Shown: positions 32,453 to 63,391 of the stretch, in pieces
Layout: each line of letters starts with the position of its first letter
How positions within the stretch are numbered: position 1 is the first letter of the stretch
Assembly: GCA_002011075.2 (NCBI GenBank)
Contig: MTMA02000006.1
Location: 1,604,599-1,668,598 of the forward strand
Length of the DNA stretch: 64,000 bases
Source: Candidatus Scotarchaeum otlingeri
GTDB taxonomy: Archaea; Thermoproteota; Nitrososphaeria; Geothermarchaeales; JDFR-13
Reading direction: 5' to 3'
Made by a program: the position numbers and the translations under genes
Notes under the pieces: model-generated
Databases searched by the model: none
The model's input: the letters and a program-made list of their open reading frames with translations, nothing else
Told to the model about the DNA's origin: nothing

Positions 32453-33175
32453 ATGATAGTGCTTCCAGTCATTGATGTAATGAATGGAAAGGTTGTACGT
32501 GCAATCCGGGGTAACAGAAATATATATAGGCCTCTTTATTCTTGGCTCACTAATAACGCTGAACCAATAGAGTTAATTAATAATTTAATTAAGATAGGTT
32601 TTAGCAAATGCTACATAGCGGATTTAGATGGAATAAGAGGGATTCATAGAGATACTAAGCTATACAGCAATATAGCTAGAAAAATTTCGGTATATTTGGA
32701 CAGTGGAATTCAGAAGATAGAAGATATAAATATGCTTTTACAGACAGGCGTTTCTAGAGTTGTTATAGCCACAGAAACTATTTCTGATCTTAACATTATA
32801 TTCCGGTCGATTAAGATGTATGGAAGCAACAAAATCATAGTTAGCATCGATTATAAGAATAAAAGGATATTATCAGCATCTGAAAACATTGGAGCTCAAA
32901 ATCTAAAAAAATTCCTAGAAGAAATTAGAGATGCAGGTGTAAAAGACATTATATTTATAGATTTGGACAGGGTAGGTGGGCTTTGCGGAGTAGAGATTGG
33001 GCTTATAAGGGAATTAACCACTTTACCCTTTAACTTATATGTTGGCGGCGGGATTAGAGATATTAATGACATTATTTCTCTTGAAAATCTAGGGGTGTTC
33101 GGTGTATTAGTTGCCTCTGCACTTCACCTTAAAAAGATAACTATCAATGAACTCAGGAATTATGGATATATATAG
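32453..33175 (+). CDS. HisA/HisF-like TIM-barrel protein associated with C1-cofactor genes
   Basis: 240-residue half-barrel repeat protein of the HisA/HisF family. The first strand VLPVIDVMNGKVVRAIRG has the HisA-like acid, and the mirrored IFIDLDRVGGLCGV is the second-half site; phosphate loops are GGGIRDI and VASALHLKK. HisA-like paralogues of this kind accompany methanofuran/methanopterin genes in methanogens and methylotrophic bacteria. Since mfnF, mfnE and mfnB lie within 4.5 kb and no other his gene is seen, a cofactor role is more likely than histidine biosynthesis. Exact reaction unknown. Confidence 0.75.
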   Translation: MIVLPVIDVMNGKVVRAIRGNRNIYRPLYSWLTNNAEPIELINNLIKIGFSKCYIADLDGIRGIHRDTKLYSNIARKISVYLDSGIQKIEDINMLLQTGVSRVVIATETISDLNIIFRSIKMYGSNKIIVSIDYKNKRILSASENIGAQNLKKFLEEIRDAGVKDIIFIDLDRVGGLCGVEIGLIRELTTLPFNLYVGGGIRDINDIISLENLGVFGVLVASALHLKKITINELRNYGYI

Positions 33176-33228
33176 TCTCTTTGCTACATTATTCTTCATC
33201 TAAATAAATATAATATTTTGGTGGTGAT

Positions 33229-35034
33229 ATGGATCCGTCGAAAGTTCTTTTTAATGAATTTAAAATTAATGATCTAATAGAATATGTATACAAATTAAGT
33301 AAGTTTCATAGAATTCAAGGAACTGATGAATTAGAGAGGGCTGGAGATTACATATTTAATTTATTAAAAGATGTTCAGGAAGGAAAAGTTACACTCCATA
33401 AGTATGATTATTATAAGCGTTATGGTGCGTTTGACCCAGTAGTGGGGTGGTCCGTCACTAATGGAGAACTGAGGATTATCAAGCCTAAAGAAGAGTTTTT
33501 ACATTCTTTTGATGAATCTAAGACATTTGTAGTTGCACATAGCCCGGGCGGGAAGGCTAGCGGGTCTGTTGTTTATATAAAAGATGGAGAAAACCCCTCT
33601 AGCTATAATGAAAAAGTAGGTGGGAAAATTATATTGACATATGGAGATCCCTATATTATATATAAAAATGCATTAGAATTCGGAGCCTTAGGAGTTATAC
33701 TCTATAAATATGAGGCTATTGAAAAGGGAGTTCCTTATATGGGTCTATTTCTATCGCCTGATGAAGCTAAATCCGCCAAGATTCCGATAGTTTCAATTTC
33801 ACGAAGTAATGCAAATAAGATTATTAACTGGATAAATAAGGGAATAGATGTGAAGGTTAGTATATCTGTCCAATCAAGTTATAGAGAATATGCTCAGATA
33901 CCTGTTATTACATACGAGGTAGGAACTGGAGATAGTGAGATACATTTATATGCTCATTATTGTCATCCTGCTAATACGATAAATGATAATGTTAGCGGAG
34001 CAGCCAGTTTACTAGTAGCCGCTTTAGCTATCGACGACTCGATTAAAAAAGGCCATATCGAGGTGCCTGATAAACATAAAATTAGGATAATATGGTTTCC
34101 TGAGTATGCAGGCTCATTAGCATATCTATCACAAGAAAAACCTCAAGTTTTGTTTAGTATTAATCTCGATATGATAGGGGAAAAACAGGAACTTACGGGA
34201 TCTACTATAAATTTCATAAGACCGCCACCTCAATTATTTCACCCTTATGAGGCTATATTATATCACATTATAAGAAAAAATATATCATGTAATACTCCAT
34301 ACTCTTCAGGCAAAAAAGTTTTATGCTATAAATTTGACTCAGCGCCATATAGTGCAGGTAGTGACCACGATATTTATATACATTATAAAGTCCCATCGGT
34401 AATGATTAACCAATGGCCCGATAAATTTTATCATAGTGATCTGGATACCATTGAAAAATTTGATGCTGTTCTTGCAAAACAAATAGCTGTATCCGCATTG
34501 ACAGCTGCATATATATCTTCAGTATCTAAATATGAGGATTATATCGGAAGATTGTCTAGAGCCTATTTTCATATCTATATTGGACAAGAAACGCTAGATA
34601 CTCCAACAAAACAAAAAAATGAGAGATATCAATATTTAGTGCATATGATTGGTAGAAGATTATTAGAGTATACTTCTCAAATGGAAATAAAAGAGATGAT
34701 AGAGGCCACGCCTTATATAACAATACCTGATGATGGAGAATACTATAGGTACATTGGTGAGCCCGGCGTCTTTCGCTTAAGATACATATATAATAAACTA
34801 GGATGGCATAGATATAGAGTCCTCAAAACCCTTATAGATGAAATGAAGTTTATGAATACTATTATTAGAAGTATAATTCCACTATACCTAGAAGAACCAC
34901 ATACACTGGAATGGTTAAGAAGAAAACTTTATTTAGATTTCGGAGTAGATGTAGACTACAATAAACTAAAGAAAATAATCAGCATACTCCAAGAATGCAA
35001 TCTAATTATAAAAACTGGTAAATTAAAGAAATAA
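33229..35034 (+). CDS. DUF4910/M28-like zinc aminopeptidase with winged-helix tail
   Basis: 601 residues. The zinc-peptidase core carries YAHYCHPANTINDNVSGAA (His and bridging Asp/Asn), WFPEYAGSLAYLS (Glu), NLDMIGE (Asp) and GSDHDIYIHYKVPSVM plus HSDLDT (last ligands). An inserted PA-like domain precedes it (about residues 80-220). The C-terminal 130 residues form helices ending in a winged-helix-like EWLRRKLYLDFGVDVDYNKLKKI. Related proteins are predicted aminopeptidases. Located between the HisA-like gene and mfnF, 53 nt and 56 nt away, so probably co-transcribed. Confidence 0.72.
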   Translation: MDPSKVLFNEFKINDLIEYVYKLSKFHRIQGTDELERAGDYIFNLLKDVQEGKVTLHKYDYYKRYGAFDPVVGWSVTNGELRIIKPKEEFLHSFDESKTFVVAHSPGGKASGSVVYIKDGENPSSYNEKVGGKIILTYGDPYIIYKNALEFGALGVILYKYEAIEKGVPYMGLFLSPDEAKSAKIPIVSISRSNANKIINWINKGIDVKVSISVQSSYREYAQIPVITYEVGTGDSEIHLYAHYCHPANTINDNVSGAASLLVAALAIDDSIKKGHIEVPDKHKIRIIWFPEYAGSLAYLSQEKPQVLFSINLDMIGEKQELTGSTINFIRPPPQLFHPYEAILYHIIRKNISCNTPYSSGKKVLCYKFDSAPYSAGSDHDIYIHYKVPSVMINQWPDKFYHSDLDTIEKFDAVLAKQIAVSALTAAYISSVSKYEDYIGRLSRAYFHIYIGQETLDTPTKQKNERYQYLVHMIGRRLLEYTSQMEIKEMIEATPYITIPDDGEYYRYIGEPGVFRLRYIYNKLGWHRYRVLKTLIDEMKFMNTIIRSIIPLYLEEPHTLEWLRRKLYLDFGVDVDYNKLKKIISILQECNLIIKTGKLKK

Positions 35035-35090
35035 GTATTTTGAGTATTTATTTCCTTATTTAGTAGAGACAGTTTTACTATGGGGTTTTT

Positions 35091-36182
35091 ATGAATAGAA
35101 TTTTGGGATGGGATATCGGAGGGGCAAACCTCAAATTAACATACATATCTGGAAAAAATAATAAAATAATTGAATCCAAGATCCTTACTAAATATTTCCC
35201 TATTTGGAAAATGGGAAAAGAGAAATTATACTCTGCTTTAAAGGAGATGGTAAATAGTATAGGTGTAGACGATGTTGATGTGATTACAGCCACTATGACC
35301 GCTGAATTATCAGATGTGTACTTCTCTAAGAAGGAAGGTGTTCATCACATAATTAATATTTTATGCGATTTATTTGAAGAACAAAGACTCTTATTTTTAG
35401 ATGTCTACGGTAATTTATTAACACCCGAAACGGCTAAAGCAGAATATTTGACCGTCGCTGCCGCGAATTGGTATGCTATAGGGTGGCTAGCGGCACAATT
35501 TTCAGATAATTGTATAGCTATTGATATGGGTAGTACATCAACATCGGTAGTACCTGTATTGGGCGGAAAAGTTAGACCTAAAGGACTTAATGATCTAGAA
35601 AAATTAATGGTAGGAGAACTTATCTATACTGGCGCATTAAGAACAAACATTATTTCGTTAGTATCGCATCTACCATTTAAAGGGAAGTTGGTTCCTGTTT
35701 CTTCCGAGTATTTTGCACAGACTGGTGATATCCACTTGTTATTGGGAAATATATCTGAAAGAGACTATATTGTGGACACCCCGGATGGCAGAGGGATTAC
35801 ACGAAGAGAGGCTTCAGCAAGATTAGCCAGAGTAATATGTGGAGACTTAGAGGTTGTACCTAATGATGAAATTATAGAAATGGCCCGATACATATATCGA
35901 GCTCAAATCAGATATGTGGCAAAGGGATTATCAAGGTTTAAGAGAAACCATAATATCAACGAAGATATACCTGTTTATGTAATGGGATTGGGAGGTAATT
36001 TTGTTGTAGTACCTGCCCTAAAACAGGTAGGTTATAAGGACATCAGATTATTTTCTGATTATGTAGGTATTGAAGCATCTAGGGCAGCACCATCATTTGC
36101 CCTAGCCCTTATGGGTTTTGAACTGCTTGAGGGAGGAGATTCAATTGGATGCATTATTAAAAATAGGAGGAAGCTTGAGTAA
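35091..36182 (+). CDS. mfnF: MfnF-type enzyme of methanofuran biosynthesis (H4MPT-linked C1-transfer family)
   Basis: 363 residues of the hydantoinase/acetate-kinase-fold family named 'H4MPT-linked C1 transfer pathway protein'. It opens ILGWDIGGANLKLTYI, a phosphate-binding strand-turn; further ATPase-fold elements are IAIDMGSTSTSVVPV and VMGLGGNFVV. In Methanocaldococcus MfnF joins (5-aminomethylfuran-3-yl)methyl diphosphate with gamma-glutamyltyramine. ATG follows GGGG at 35084. The mfnE gene begins inside its 3' end, giving a 38-nt overlap. Strong sign of methanofuran synthesis. Confidence 0.83.
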   Translation: MNRILGWDIGGANLKLTYISGKNNKIIESKILTKYFPIWKMGKEKLYSALKEMVNSIGVDDVDVITATMTAELSDVYFSKKEGVHHIINILCDLFEEQRLLFLDVYGNLLTPETAKAEYLTVAAANWYAIGWLAAQFSDNCIAIDMGSTSTSVVPVLGGKVRPKGLNDLEKLMVGELIYTGALRTNIISLVSHLPFKGKLVPVSSEYFAQTGDIHLLLGNISERDYIVDTPDGRGITRREASARLARVICGDLEVVPNDEIIEMARYIYRAQIRYVAKGLSRFKRNHNINEDIPVYVMGLGGNFVVVPALKQVGYKDIRLFSDYVGIEASRAAPSFALALMGFELLEGGDSIGCIIKNRRKLE

Positions 36183-36786
36183 ATATCCAAAAAAACTTAA
36201 ACGTTTATGTGTCGAGATTAGTAAGCTAGTCGGTATAATAGATATTATCATAGTGCCTGGAGGTGGCGAATTTGCCGATCTAGTTAGGAAGCATTATGAG
36301 ACATTCGATATAACGCAAGAAACAGCGCATCAAATGGCTATAAGAGCTATGGATCAATATGGACTGTTATTAGCCGACATAACTCCTAACTCTGTTATGG
36401 TGGAATACATATATGAAGCATATGATGCTATCACTCAAAATAAAGTACCTATTTTACTTCCATACTCTCTTGTGAAAGACACACATGAACTAGAAGCCTC
36501 TTGGGATGTAACATCAGATAGCATCTCTCTATACCTAGCTTATATAATTGGATGTAAAAAGTTGATTTTGTTAAAAGATGTGGATGGGATATATGGAGAT
36601 GATGAACTTTTACAGACAGTTACTACTAAATGGTTAGCTGACCATCCCTCATGTATAGATAAGTATTTTCCTAAGCTATTGTCAAAAATGTATGTAGATA
36701 CGTATATTGTTAATGGTCTATATCCAGACCGCCTATTGGCCGCGTTACAGGAATTGCCGGCCATATATACACGGATAATAAAATGA
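36145..36786 (+). CDS. mfnE: MfnE-type amino-acid-kinase-fold phosphate kinase
   Basis: 213 residues of the amino acid kinase fold. LLKIGGSLSKYPKKLKRL is the Gly-rich N-terminal loop, IVPGGGEFADLVR the second loop, and KLILLKDVDGIYG the nucleotide-binding part. In methanogens MfnE phosphorylates (5-aminomethylfuran-3-yl)methyl phosphate to the diphosphate. I choose TTG at 36145, preceded by GGGAGGAG, over the track start at 36118. Overlaps mfnF by 38 nt and converges with mfnB at 1 nt distance. Confidence 0.8.
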   Translation: MDALLKIGGSLSKYPKKLKRLCVEISKLVGIIDIIIVPGGGEFADLVRKHYETFDITQETAHQMAIRAMDQYGLLLADITPNSVMVEYIYEAYDAITQNKVPILLPYSLVKDTHELEASWDVTSDSISLYLAYIIGCKKLILLKDVDGIYGDDELLQTVTTKWLADHPSCIDKYFPKLLSKMYVDTYIVNGLYPDRLLAALQELPAIYTRIIK

Positions 36787-36787
36787 A

Positions 36788-37504
36788 TCATAAATATTTC
36801 TTTATTTCTTCGTATAATCTTATTACTTTAGAAGGGTCGATACGTGCCTTAAGCCATTCATAATTATTGCATACACTTCTCCTAACCCCCATAATGTCCA
36901 CATCAAGCTGAATAAGTGTTTCTACATCATTAATACCCAGTCCTCCAGCTAAGGCGATGGTAAGATTATAATTGTGGCACTCTTTCACAATCCTTCTTAA
37001 TTCTTTAGCCTCTATAAAATCAAAGACACTACTACCCGACTTATTCTTGATATCAATTAGGACCCCTTCACATCCCGATTTATAACCTATCATAGGTAAT
37101 GTAAAGGGAGAGATAGAATTAATTTGCTGATAATCAGCATATGCACAAGCTATGACCTTGACATCATTGGACTCGTTTTTTACAGCTTCTACTATCCACT
37201 TCATGATATTAACAGCTTCATTGATGGTTCTAACTCCATATAATCCAGCCTTTATATAATTTACTTTTGTAGTGGCCATACCTAATGCAGCTAGGGCAGC
37301 AGTACCAGGTAAATATGGTAGGTCACCTATAGTCCCACTTATTTCTCGGCGGCCGTCTATAATTTCGACTATTTCCCTAACAAGGTTAGGATGACTAGCA
37401 CCTAAAGACCCCTCTTCTGGATTTTTTATATCAATTATATCGCATTTTGCCTTTAGAACAAGATGTGCTTCATCGATATCCCTAATACTAACTAAGAGCC
37501 TCAT
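36788..37504 (-). CDS. mfnB: (5-formylfuran-3-yl)methyl phosphate synthase
   Basis: 238-residue TIM-barrel MfnB, which condenses two glyceraldehyde-3-phosphate molecules to make the furan ring of methanofuran. The N-terminal MRLLVSIRDIDEAHLVLKA and IIDIKNPEEGSLGASHP (Schiff-base Lys) segments match archaeal and bacterial MfnB. Other parts: LAGGLGINDVETLI and IMGVRRSVC phosphate-binding loops. It is transcribed towards mfnE, so the furan pathway here uses two transcripts meeting at 36787. Confidence 0.88.
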   Translation of the reverse strand: MRLLVSIRDIDEAHLVLKAKCDIIDIKNPEEGSLGASHPNLVREIVEIIDGRREISGTIGDLPYLPGTAALAALGMATTKVNYIKAGLYGVRTINEAVNIMKWIVEAVKNESNDVKVIACAYADYQQINSISPFTLPMIGYKSGCEGVLIDIKNKSGSSVFDFIEAKELRRIVKECHNYNLTIALAGGLGINDVETLIQLDVDIMGVRRSVCNNYEWLKARIDPSKVIRLYEEIKKYL

Positions 37505-38993: not shown

Positions 38994-40406
38994 TTATAAA
39001 CCTATGATATAAAAGCGTAAATACAGTATTGCAACCGCCATTATAAAGCTGGGTACAGCAGTTATCACCCCTACTTTTACCCACTGCCTCATAGCAATTG
39101 TGCCTATTTTCCTTCTCTCTAATAAGCCCATAACCACTATAGACGCTGTTGCACCTACTGGGGTTAGCAAAGCCATAAAGACCCCACCAAAAAGTAACCC
39201 CCACCATAATGGAAAGATGTTGATGCCTACTTCAGCAATACTATGGACAACAGGTGAAAATGTCGCGACAGCCAGAACGTTGTCCATAACTGGACTTAAA
39301 AGGCCTACAATAATTGTGACCAATAGAAAAATTATATTATCATTTCCACCTGCTAAGTTAAATATATATCCAGCAATTAGATTAGTTATTCCGACAAGCT
39401 TCAATGTACCTACCGAAGCGAAGAAAGCCATAAAAAAAGTTAAAGTCCACCAGTCAACTTTATGTACAATAATATCATGTGCGTGATCTTTCTCGAATAA
39501 TAATGCTATACCAGAAAATATTAAAGGTATGGCGAGCAATATTGTCTCTGGTGAGATATACGCATTATATATATAGCCTAATAAATCTGCTATCTGCTTG
39601 TGAATAACTATTCCGCCTACTGTTCCTAAAAATATGAACCAGAGTTTCCTTAGTTGGTTAGGTTCTATCTGGTACCTAAGCTCCGATACCTCCTCTAACT
39701 TTACCTCTTTCATACCTTCTTGAAGGTCTTGAATATTTTCCTTAAACAGCTTTAGCATTATCCAGATAATGTAAATTGTTGCTAGTATAGTTATTGGGGT
39801 CGCCCATCTCAAGAAATCTGTCATTGTTAAATTTCCTTCAAATGCTACAATTATGGCTACAGGGTCACCTACAACTGTTGCACTTCCACCGATTATAGTG
39901 GTAAATGTAATTCCAAGTATGAGGTTTAACGGATCCGTATTATATAATCTGGCTATTTCCCAGGTCATCGCAGCCATGAATAATATTGCTGTTACTTCGT
40001 CAACTAACGCACTAAATACCGCGGACAAAGCCATTAATATGGCTACTAATCTATTAGCATTAGTACCTACTATTCGGATGATACGTATCGTAATATATTC
40101 AAAGAAGTGTGCTTCTTCCAGATAACCAATTATGGTCATCATCGCAATTAGAAAAATGATTATATCTATGTGTGCGAAGGCGATTAATGTTGATATGTCT
40201 AGTAATCCCAGCATCAGCAACATTGATACTCCTATTAACCCGAAAGGTAAACGTAGATTCCAATAAAGTAGTGTTCCTGCTATCAATGAGGCAAATACAG
40301 CTAGTGAGACTATCTGTCTTAAACTAAGTCCTGACAAAACACTGAGTATAATAATAACTGATAATACACCGAAATATATTATTTTCTTGTCGATTCTGAC
40401 CATCAT
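38994..40406 (-). CDS. ArsB/NhaD-type ion transporter (SLC13-like permease)
   Basis: 470 residues with about 11-12 membrane helices. The pseudo-repeat segments FSALVDEVTAILFMAAMTWEIA and LLSPVMDNVLAVATFSPVVHS each hold an Asp/Asn pair, and TTIIGGSATVVGDPVAIIVAF is the paired re-entrant loop, as in arsenite permeases and NhaD sodium/proton antiporters. Start ATG at 40406 has GAGGTGA 5 nt ahead. Whether it moves arsenite, sodium or a dicarboxylate cannot be decided. No arsR or arsenate reductase is adjacent. Confidence 0.8.
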   Translation of the reverse strand: MMVRIDKKIIYFGVLSVIIILSVLSGLSLRQIVSLAVFASLIAGTLLYWNLRLPFGLIGVSMLLMLGLLDISTLIAFAHIDIIIFLIAMMTIIGYLEEAHFFEYITIRIIRIVGTNANRLVAILMALSAVFSALVDEVTAILFMAAMTWEIARLYNTDPLNLILGITFTTIIGGSATVVGDPVAIIVAFEGNLTMTDFLRWATPITILATIYIIWIMLKLFKENIQDLQEGMKEVKLEEVSELRYQIEPNQLRKLWFIFLGTVGGIVIHKQIADLLGYIYNAYISPETILLAIPLIFSGIALLFEKDHAHDIIVHKVDWWTLTFFMAFFASVGTLKLVGITNLIAGYIFNLAGGNDNIIFLLVTIIVGLLSPVMDNVLAVATFSPVVHSIAEVGINIFPLWWGLLFGGVFMALLTPVGATASIVVMGLLERRKIGTIAMRQWVKVGVITAVPSFIMAVAILYLRFYIIGL

Positions 40407-40787
40407 GTTCACCTCTCTTAAAGAAATCATGTTTATGGGTAGGCTTTATATTCTCTTAACAATATAATCTTTATATTATTGAGCGCAAGCATGTATATAT
40501 GCTATGATATATAAAAATCAATAAGTAAGTTATTATATTTCATAAAGATGCTCTAAGAATATGAGTAACTAGGGTAATTATAAAAAATTAACTTCTCAAT
40601 CTATATATGAAGTTATCTTTCTTATATATAATGAATTTATAATATCTATATTTGACTTAGATAATAGCTATATTATTCTCAGTATATAGTTATAAAAAAT
40701 ATAGTAATCTATCAAACAAGACCTTAGTTTTGTTTTTCGCAAAAATTTATTTATTATCTTAACGAAATATAAAATGAGGTGTAATAA
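40407..40787. other. very AT-rich divergent intergenic region
   Basis: These 381 nt separate the permease from the secreted-peptide gene. I see no coding potential above noise. Contents: a short palindrome AGCAT-N6-ATGCT at 40488-40503, several TATA-like runs, and TTTATTTATTA near 40746-40756 that fits as the TATA box of the downstream peptide. Large size for a single divergent promoter region. Confidence 0.5.
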
Positions 40788-62630: not shown

Positions 62631-62950
62631 GGTGGCGGGGTAGGGCTGGGGGGCTGGCCGTCCCCTATAACCTGAAACCGGCCATATGCAGGGGCCAGTA
62701 ACCCCTGGGTAAACACCGAAAACCACATCTTAACCCCATTACAGGGGAGATGTGGCCTCCGCCATGGGGAGATATACTGTGGAGACCCTCGTTGGAGGAC
62801 GAGGGAGACCCACTAAGGGGTGAACCGGGTTAGGCGCGGGAGCGAGCGGCCCTAAGCCCCGGTGTATCTGCTCCATGATACGGGGGTTGAATCCTTTGTA
62901 ATGGGGAGGGTGTGGGAGTACGGTGGGAACCAGGGGAGCCCGCCACCACC
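62631..62950 (+). ncRNA. ffs: 7S RNA of the signal recognition particle
   Basis: About 320 nt of very GC-rich RNA gene between AT-rich flanks. The two ends form a perfect helix: GGTGGCGGG at 62631-62639 with CCCGCCACC at 62939-62947. The SRP54-binding helix 8 is clear: GTGAACCGGGTTAGG, a GCGGGAGCGAGC tip and CCTAAGCCCC. The Alu-domain-like 5' part starts with GGGCTGGGGGGCTGGCCG. Together with uL23 this forms the co-translational targeting route. The exact ends are approximate by a few bases. Confidence 0.93.
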
Positions 62951-63318: not shown

Positions 63319-63391
63319 GGGTCCGTGGTCTAGTGGCTATGACGCCTCCCTGACGCGGAGGAGGTCGTGGGTTCAACTCCCACCGGACCCA
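63319..63391 (+). tRNA. tRNA-Val(GAC)
   Basis: 73 nt, no intron. Acceptor GGGTCCG pairs with CGGACCC, discriminator A, CCA not encoded. Anticodon stem CCTCC/GGAGG with loop CTGACGC gives GAC, reading GTC/GTT. D-arm GTCTAGTGGCTATGAC and T-arm GTGGG-TTCAACT-CCCAC are normal. Confidence 0.95.

Follow-up and report, generated by a model that had tools for sequence, protein, structure and literature searches.

Wood-Ljungdahl pathways that run on tetrahydromethanopterin (H4MPT) have been published for non-methanogenic Nitrososphaeria, in the four families JACPRH01, JACAEJ01, JAAOZN01 and QQ_bin.110111 (PMC10833072). Similar work exists for Bathyarchaeia (PMC9635834) and also for Crenarchaeota (PMC5020050). 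Methanofuran genes together with such a pathway in a non-methanogen are thus in themselves of a known type. This text is about a cluster of methanofuran biosynthesis (mfn) genes at positions 32453-37504 of a stretch of DNA from Candidatus Scotarchaeum otlingeri. The whole stretch, called the window here, is 64,000 nucleotides long. It covers positions 1,604,599-1,668,598 of contig C6 (1,676,113 bases), in an assembly of 1,686,652 bases. The genome is called G000 below. A first-pass annotation of the window had listed five open reading frames for the cluster, and all five are confirmed:

32453-33175, forward strand: HisA/HisF-like protein of the TIGR00734 type, homologue of Orf17/MJ0703 of methanofuran biosynthesis
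33229-35034, forward strand: M28/DUF4910 peptidase-like protein (weak matches, PF04389 with 41 bits and PF16254 with 33 bits)
35091-36182, forward strand: MfnF, which couples the furan-amine half to the gamma-glutamyl-tyramine half (TIGR03123, tree)
36145-36786, forward strand, from its more likely start: MfnE, aminomethylfuran-methyl phosphate kinase (NF040622, PDB 7qrh)
36788-37504, reverse strand: MfnB, (5-formylfuran-3-yl)methyl phosphate synthase (PF04476, MJ1099 structure)

Judged by gene content, this cluster very probably makes methanofuran, in a non-methanogen with a complete H4MPT/methanofuran Wood-Ljungdahl pathway. The family scores agree with the earlier assignments of MfnB, MfnE and MfnF, and place all three inside the Mfn families. 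MfnB scores 239 bits on PF04476, where 22 is the cut-off, and its match to the structure of MJ1099 stands at 2.7e-50. It retains the residues aligned with K27, K85, K155, D25 and D151 of MJ1099, so that the Schiff-base and substrate lysines are kept; K27, K85, D25 and D151 are what we take to be key MfnB positions. K155 of MJ1099 is a catalytic/substrate-binding residue (PMC11365854). The top family for MfnE is NF040622 with 170 bits, the second-ranked family reaching 39 bits, and PDB entry 7qrh is matched at 4e-35. The MfnE reading frame opens at 36118, with a TTG at 36145 as alternative start; the starts of its relatives make the TTG the more likely one. MfnF scores 300 bits on TIGR03123, above the cut-off of 244. 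The equivalog cut-offs (NF040623, 520, for MfnF; NF040622, 300, for MfnE) are not reached by either protein; these models were trained on methanogens, and such a shortfall agrees with the distance of the lineage. In the family profile scan the HisA-like protein has TIGR00734 as its top match, at 131 bits, which is under the cut-off of 180.

The order HisA-like, MfnD, MfnF, MfnE and a convergent MfnB is seen in other families, at L009 and in G285, G288 and G274. In G264 and G271, MfnD, MfnF and MfnE are grouped and the HisA-like gene is divergent. Because gene order recurs across families, the cluster is not a product of chance. The HisA-like gene also adjoins MfnD or MfnF in several other families, and is a genuine member of the mfn set. 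The first-pass annotation had named it a companion of such genes, and was right to do so: Methylorubrum cannot do without the homologue, Orf17, in making methylofuran, where Orf17 has an early role by a still unassigned reaction (PMC8141765). This strengthens the case for the Orf17-type protein as a general step in furan coenzyme synthesis.

The peptidase had been counted as part of the cluster too, and this does not stand. No M28-like peptidase is present in the other mfn loci examined, and the protein is probably a bystander. It occupies the slot held by MfnD in related loci. For sharing that slot it was considered as a stand-in for MfnD, and rejected, MfnD having been found 930 kb away. Downstream of MfnB lies an ArsB/NhaD-type antiporter (window 38994-40430); a 39% homologue adjoins MfnB in G285, which is of a different family.

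Elsewhere in the genome are the genes that give the cluster its setting:

Contig C6, near 692,600: MptN
Contig C6, 700,002-707,098: Mch, FwdC, FwdA, a fused FwdD-FwdB, Mtd and Ftr, assigned by family scores
Contig C6, position 707,252: MfnD, then a CitG-like protein and MptA
Contig C6, 713,589-721,737: TIGR00284, DmrX/AfpA, a DUF1464-like protein, RFAP synthase, DUF447, MptE, MptD, Mer and a CofE-like protein
Contig C6, 721,979-728,907: CdhA, CdhB, CdhC, CdhD and CdhE, then an AcsV-like activator

The family scores, in bits, are 379 for Mch, 225 for FwdC, 728 for FwdA, 522 for FwdB (fused to FwdD), 390 for Mtd, 418 for Ftr, 274 for MptA, 430 for TIGR00284, 474 for Mer, 1165 for CdhA, 107 for CdhB, 699 for CdhC, 387 for CdhD (TIGR00381) and 571 for CdhE. 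All of these are at or above the curated cut-offs. MfnD has NF040722 as its sole match, at 113 bits and under the cut-off of 400, and matches at 37% the corresponding protein of G004, a member of the same family (DQXH01000024.1, 'Thermoprotei archaeon HyVt-129'). FwdB has a metal-ligand cysteine opposite the selenocysteine of structure 9sfi. Genes for tetrahydromethanopterin synthesis are found on the same contig as the mfn cluster. G004 holds orthologues of most of these C1 and mfn proteins. One dehydrogenase of G004 (L007 52-708) was tried as MtdB, and dropped since Pfam shows an AlaDh/PNT domain only.

The non-methanogen setting suspected from the window fits the genome: McrA was not found there, in a search that was positive for two controls and one phylum member. 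A truncated Wood-Ljungdahl pathway, also suggested, does not fit, given that Fwd, Ftr, Mch, Mtd, Mer and the carbon monoxide dehydrogenase/acetyl-CoA synthase (CODH/ACS) are all present. Nor is methanofuran little described in non-methanogens of the TACK group (Thaumarchaeota, Aigarchaeota, Crenarchaeota and Korarchaeota), as had been thought. Pathways are published, as cited above, and MfnF is found in 62 of 398 phylum genomes. These 398 were drawn evenly, and the two phylum searches made are taken as the same set. Other C1 and methanofuran genes do exist in the genome: from the list that had been proposed for checking, mfnD, ftr, fwd, mch, mtd and mer turned up, mfnA was not found, and mfnC could not be identified.

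Methanofuran would be made in two halves. One half would come from MfnB and MfnE, plus an MfnC, the other from a tyrosine decarboxylase and MfnD. MfnF would then couple both, and the HisA-like protein would take an early step. Fwd would load CO2 onto the finished methanofuran as a formyl group, which Ftr would move to H4MPT. Mch, Mtd and Mer, of the F420 type, would reduce it to a methyl group, and CODH/ACS would form acetyl-CoA, reversibly. The direction, activity and expression of this pathway we infer from sequence. Two things count against so complete a picture. The assembly has a completeness rating of 88%, and no MfnC was identified in the genome; the aminotransferases in the window match many families, none of them specific for MfnC. 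Very probably, then, a methanofuran cluster that looks like an orphan serves a CO2/acetyl-CoA pathway which this non-methanogen has in full.

Some neighbours of the C1 genes deserve mention. The genome has four CofE-like paralogues with the F420 gamma-glutamyl ligase fold (L142 11982-12692, L143 9980-10738, L145 6014-6760 and L146 6896-7660). A NapH-like ferredoxin membrane protein and a CoxB-like cupredoxin lie inside the C1 region, at C6:711257-713132 (L143 258-2133). A PhsA/polysulfide-reductase-like molybdoenzyme, an iron-sulphur protein, an NrfD-like membrane protein and a TorD-like chaperone are encoded at C6:695374-699943 (L109 3375-7944), and some 60 bases separate the end of this gene group from Mch. 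With such a group beside Mch, sulphur-compound respiration may go either with CO2 fixation or with acetyl-CoA oxidation.

What is new here is a missing enzyme, and a protein family linked to methanofuran genes. MfnA, the pyridoxal phosphate-dependent tyrosine decarboxylase, was not found in this nearly one-contig genome. The best score on TIGR03812 is 30 bits, with a cut-off of 299; phylum genomes above that cut-off have 328-516 bits. Both G004 and the L009 locus have a small, divergent protein of the S-adenosylmethionine (AdoMet) decarboxylase family adjoining or close to MfnD. We call this divergent family SAMDm. G000 has a member of it in addition to an ordinary speD, which speE follows; this member is:

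C6:1156558-1156923 (L233 9559-9924), reverse strand: SAMDm, a divergent AdoMet-decarboxylase-family protein

SAMDm is present in 10 of the 398 phylum genomes, with strong matches of 140-228 bits, the remainder scoring at most 59 bits. Nine of the ten also have MfnF, which the sample as a whole has in 62 of 398 (Fisher 2.8e-7; by genus 1.2e-5). If G004 is added to these nine, MfnA is absent in nine out of ten MfnF-positive SAMDm genomes. In G288 and G274, SAMDm is found 49-58 bases ahead of HisA-like-MfnD-MfnF-MfnE, with all five genes on the same strand. The gap to MfnD in G004, where SAMDm again comes first, is 32 bases, and in G278, G299 and G285 SAMDm is at most 3.2 kb from MfnF. Across several genera, SAMDm thus lies close to MfnF or MfnD far more often than chance would give. 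The link of SAMDm to methanofuran is well supported, which cannot be said of its reaction. Among the papers searched, none was found that joins SAMDm-type proteins with methanofuran.

The predicted model of SAMDm (predicted local distance difference test score 90) has the AdoMet decarboxylase (AdoMetDC) fold. Its best match is the T. maritima AdoMet decarboxylase 1tmi, with a template modelling (TM) score of 0.77 and 1.5e-7. SAMDm forms a single clade on a long stem, with support 100/100, in a tree that holds no characterised arginine or ornithine enzyme. The equivalents of Ser63, the pyruvoyl serine, and of Cys83 are invariant. His68 is replaced, and for that reason SAMDm is counted within the fold family but not among the SpeD enzymes.

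Our tentative proposal, which distribution and gene neighbourhood suggest, is that SAMDm may be a pyruvoyl-dependent L-tyrosine decarboxylase that makes tyramine. It would have evolved from AdoMet decarboxylase, with Tyr for His68, and would replace MfnA in several Thermoproteota families. The reasons are that methanofuran synthesis has a tyrosine decarboxylation, that SAMDm adjoins the next enzyme, MfnD, and that the AdoMetDC fold gave rise to arginine and ornithine decarboxylases (PMC10407285). In addition, some producers of the tyramine type have no MfnA, which has led to the suggestion of unknown decarboxylases (PMC8141765). If true, no tyrosine decarboxylase with this fold would have come before SAMDm, which would also be among the tyramine sources inferred in that work. 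Which enzymes besides MfnA provide tyramine for furan coenzymes is a known question, and one small protein makes it directly testable.

A number of facts pull against a tyramine-making SAMDm, and several of them feed other explanations. Tyr replaces His68 in 11 of 11 members. In T. maritima, S63, C83 and His68 are essential for self-processing (PMC10407285), so autoprocessing of SAMDm is uncertain. The residue before the serine is Gly instead of Glu in two members, those of G264 and G271. One genome, G404, has both MfnA and SAMDm, although its bin is 75% complete, the contig with SAMDm is 6 kb long, and the genus-mates have no SAMDm. All this would suit a SAMDm that stays unprocessed and decarboxylates nothing, but serves methanofuran synthesis by binding, as a chaperone or as a partner protein. 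The invariant processing-site serine and cysteine argue otherwise, as does MfnA being missing in nine of ten genomes. Such a role is unlikely, if still worth keeping in mind.

It may also be that no tyrosine decarboxylase is needed, since Methylorubrum extorquens makes tyrosine-type methanofuran, and does so without MfnA (PMC8141765). This lineage has no MfnA either, and another 28 MfnF-positive genomes, several of them nearly complete, have neither SAMDm nor MfnA above the cut-off. That also means that SAMDm was dropped as an explanation for all MfnA-less genomes. M. extorquens is however without MfnD as well, while the genome studied has an MfnD-type ligase, an enzyme whose known substrate is tyramine. 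Tyrosine-type methanofuran is for these reasons a rather improbable answer here.

Then there is the idea that SAMDm serves polyamine synthesis, decarboxylating arginine or ornithine, and sits near mfn genes by chance. Fold and family are the same, there are precedents of neofunctionalised SpeD (PMC10407285), and G257 keeps SAMDm though its mfn block is lost. Yet family genomes without methanofuran mostly have a SpeD-like protein and in no case SAMDm, and G004 carries two ordinary SpeD-like proteins plus SAMDm. His68 is expected to be conserved in arginine and ornithine enzymes (PMC10407285), and here it is changed. Chance is also what the neighbourhoods in several genera speak against. A polyamine role is quite unlikely.

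Two further weaknesses of the tyramine proposal should be named. In G000, SAMDm is outside the window and far from the mfn genes, flanked by ferritin-like and acyl-CoA synthetase-like genes. The MfnA contrast, taken alone, is weak, with P=0.03 uncorrected for kinship.

The distribution of the pathway is patchy. MfnF is in 2 of 11 family genomes, G000 and G004, and Ftr in 8 of 250 genomes of the class, whose make-up suggests Nitrososphaeria. In the MfnF tree these two family members group with G288/G274 and G285/G278/G299, from families outside the class, with support 99/99. The tree fits transfer or multiple losses alike. Patchiness within the family helps to judge whether the phylum has gained or lost the Wood-Ljungdahl pathway. 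That the mfn genes are relics of a lost pathway, like the H4MPT branch parts that persist in Halobacteria without the main pathway (PMC9635834), would agree with this patchiness and with the clean loss of the mfn block in G257, of another family, but every C1 enzyme in this genome has an open frame and a high family score, a gene content that appears to have largely refuted the idea already and leaves it hardly credible.

The loss in G257 can be seen next to its genus-mate G285 (L291 vs L292). The HisA-like gene, MfnD, MfnF, MfnE and MfnB are gone and the locus is otherwise syntenic, SAMDm included. G004 holds a decayed second MfnF, MptE and DUF447-like set on contig C26 (L008 8530-10270), directly before SAMDm and MfnD; C19 carries the intact set, with its genes in matching order. 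Close to its end, the window also has an archaeal signal recognition particle RNA (62633-62945) and a tRNA gene (63319-63391).

Compared with the H4MPT Wood-Ljungdahl pathways of Nitrososphaeria (PMC10833072) and Bathyarchaeia (PMC9635834), the logic and the enzymes are the same: Fwd, Ftr, Mch, Mtd, Mer and CODH/ACS, here with no Mcr. G000 differs from the published QQ_bin.110111 and JACPRH01 in that its MfnF clusters elsewhere, with two other phylum families (99/99), and in having no MfnA.

With the MfnA-F set of Methanocaldococcus jannaschii, G000 shares MfnB, residues included, as well as MfnD, MfnE and MfnF. In contrast to M. jannaschii, it is without MfnA, has no MfnC assigned, and its cluster is built around an Orf17-type HisA-like gene. 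Methylorubrum extorquens shares Orf17, MfnF/Orf9, MfnE/Orf21 and MfnB/Orf22 with G000, and likewise lacks MfnA (PMC8141765). The difference is that G000 has MfnD, and archaeal Fwd plus Mtd, Mer and CODH/ACS, whereas M. extorquens has the bacterial Fhc formaldehyde pathway.

The SpeD-derived pyruvoyl arginine and ornithine decarboxylases (PMC10407285), finally, have the AdoMetDC fold and the invariant serine and cysteine in common with SAMDm. Unlike them, SAMDm has Tyr for His68, is linked to methanofuran genes and not to polyamine genes, and forms a separate clade with 100/100 support.

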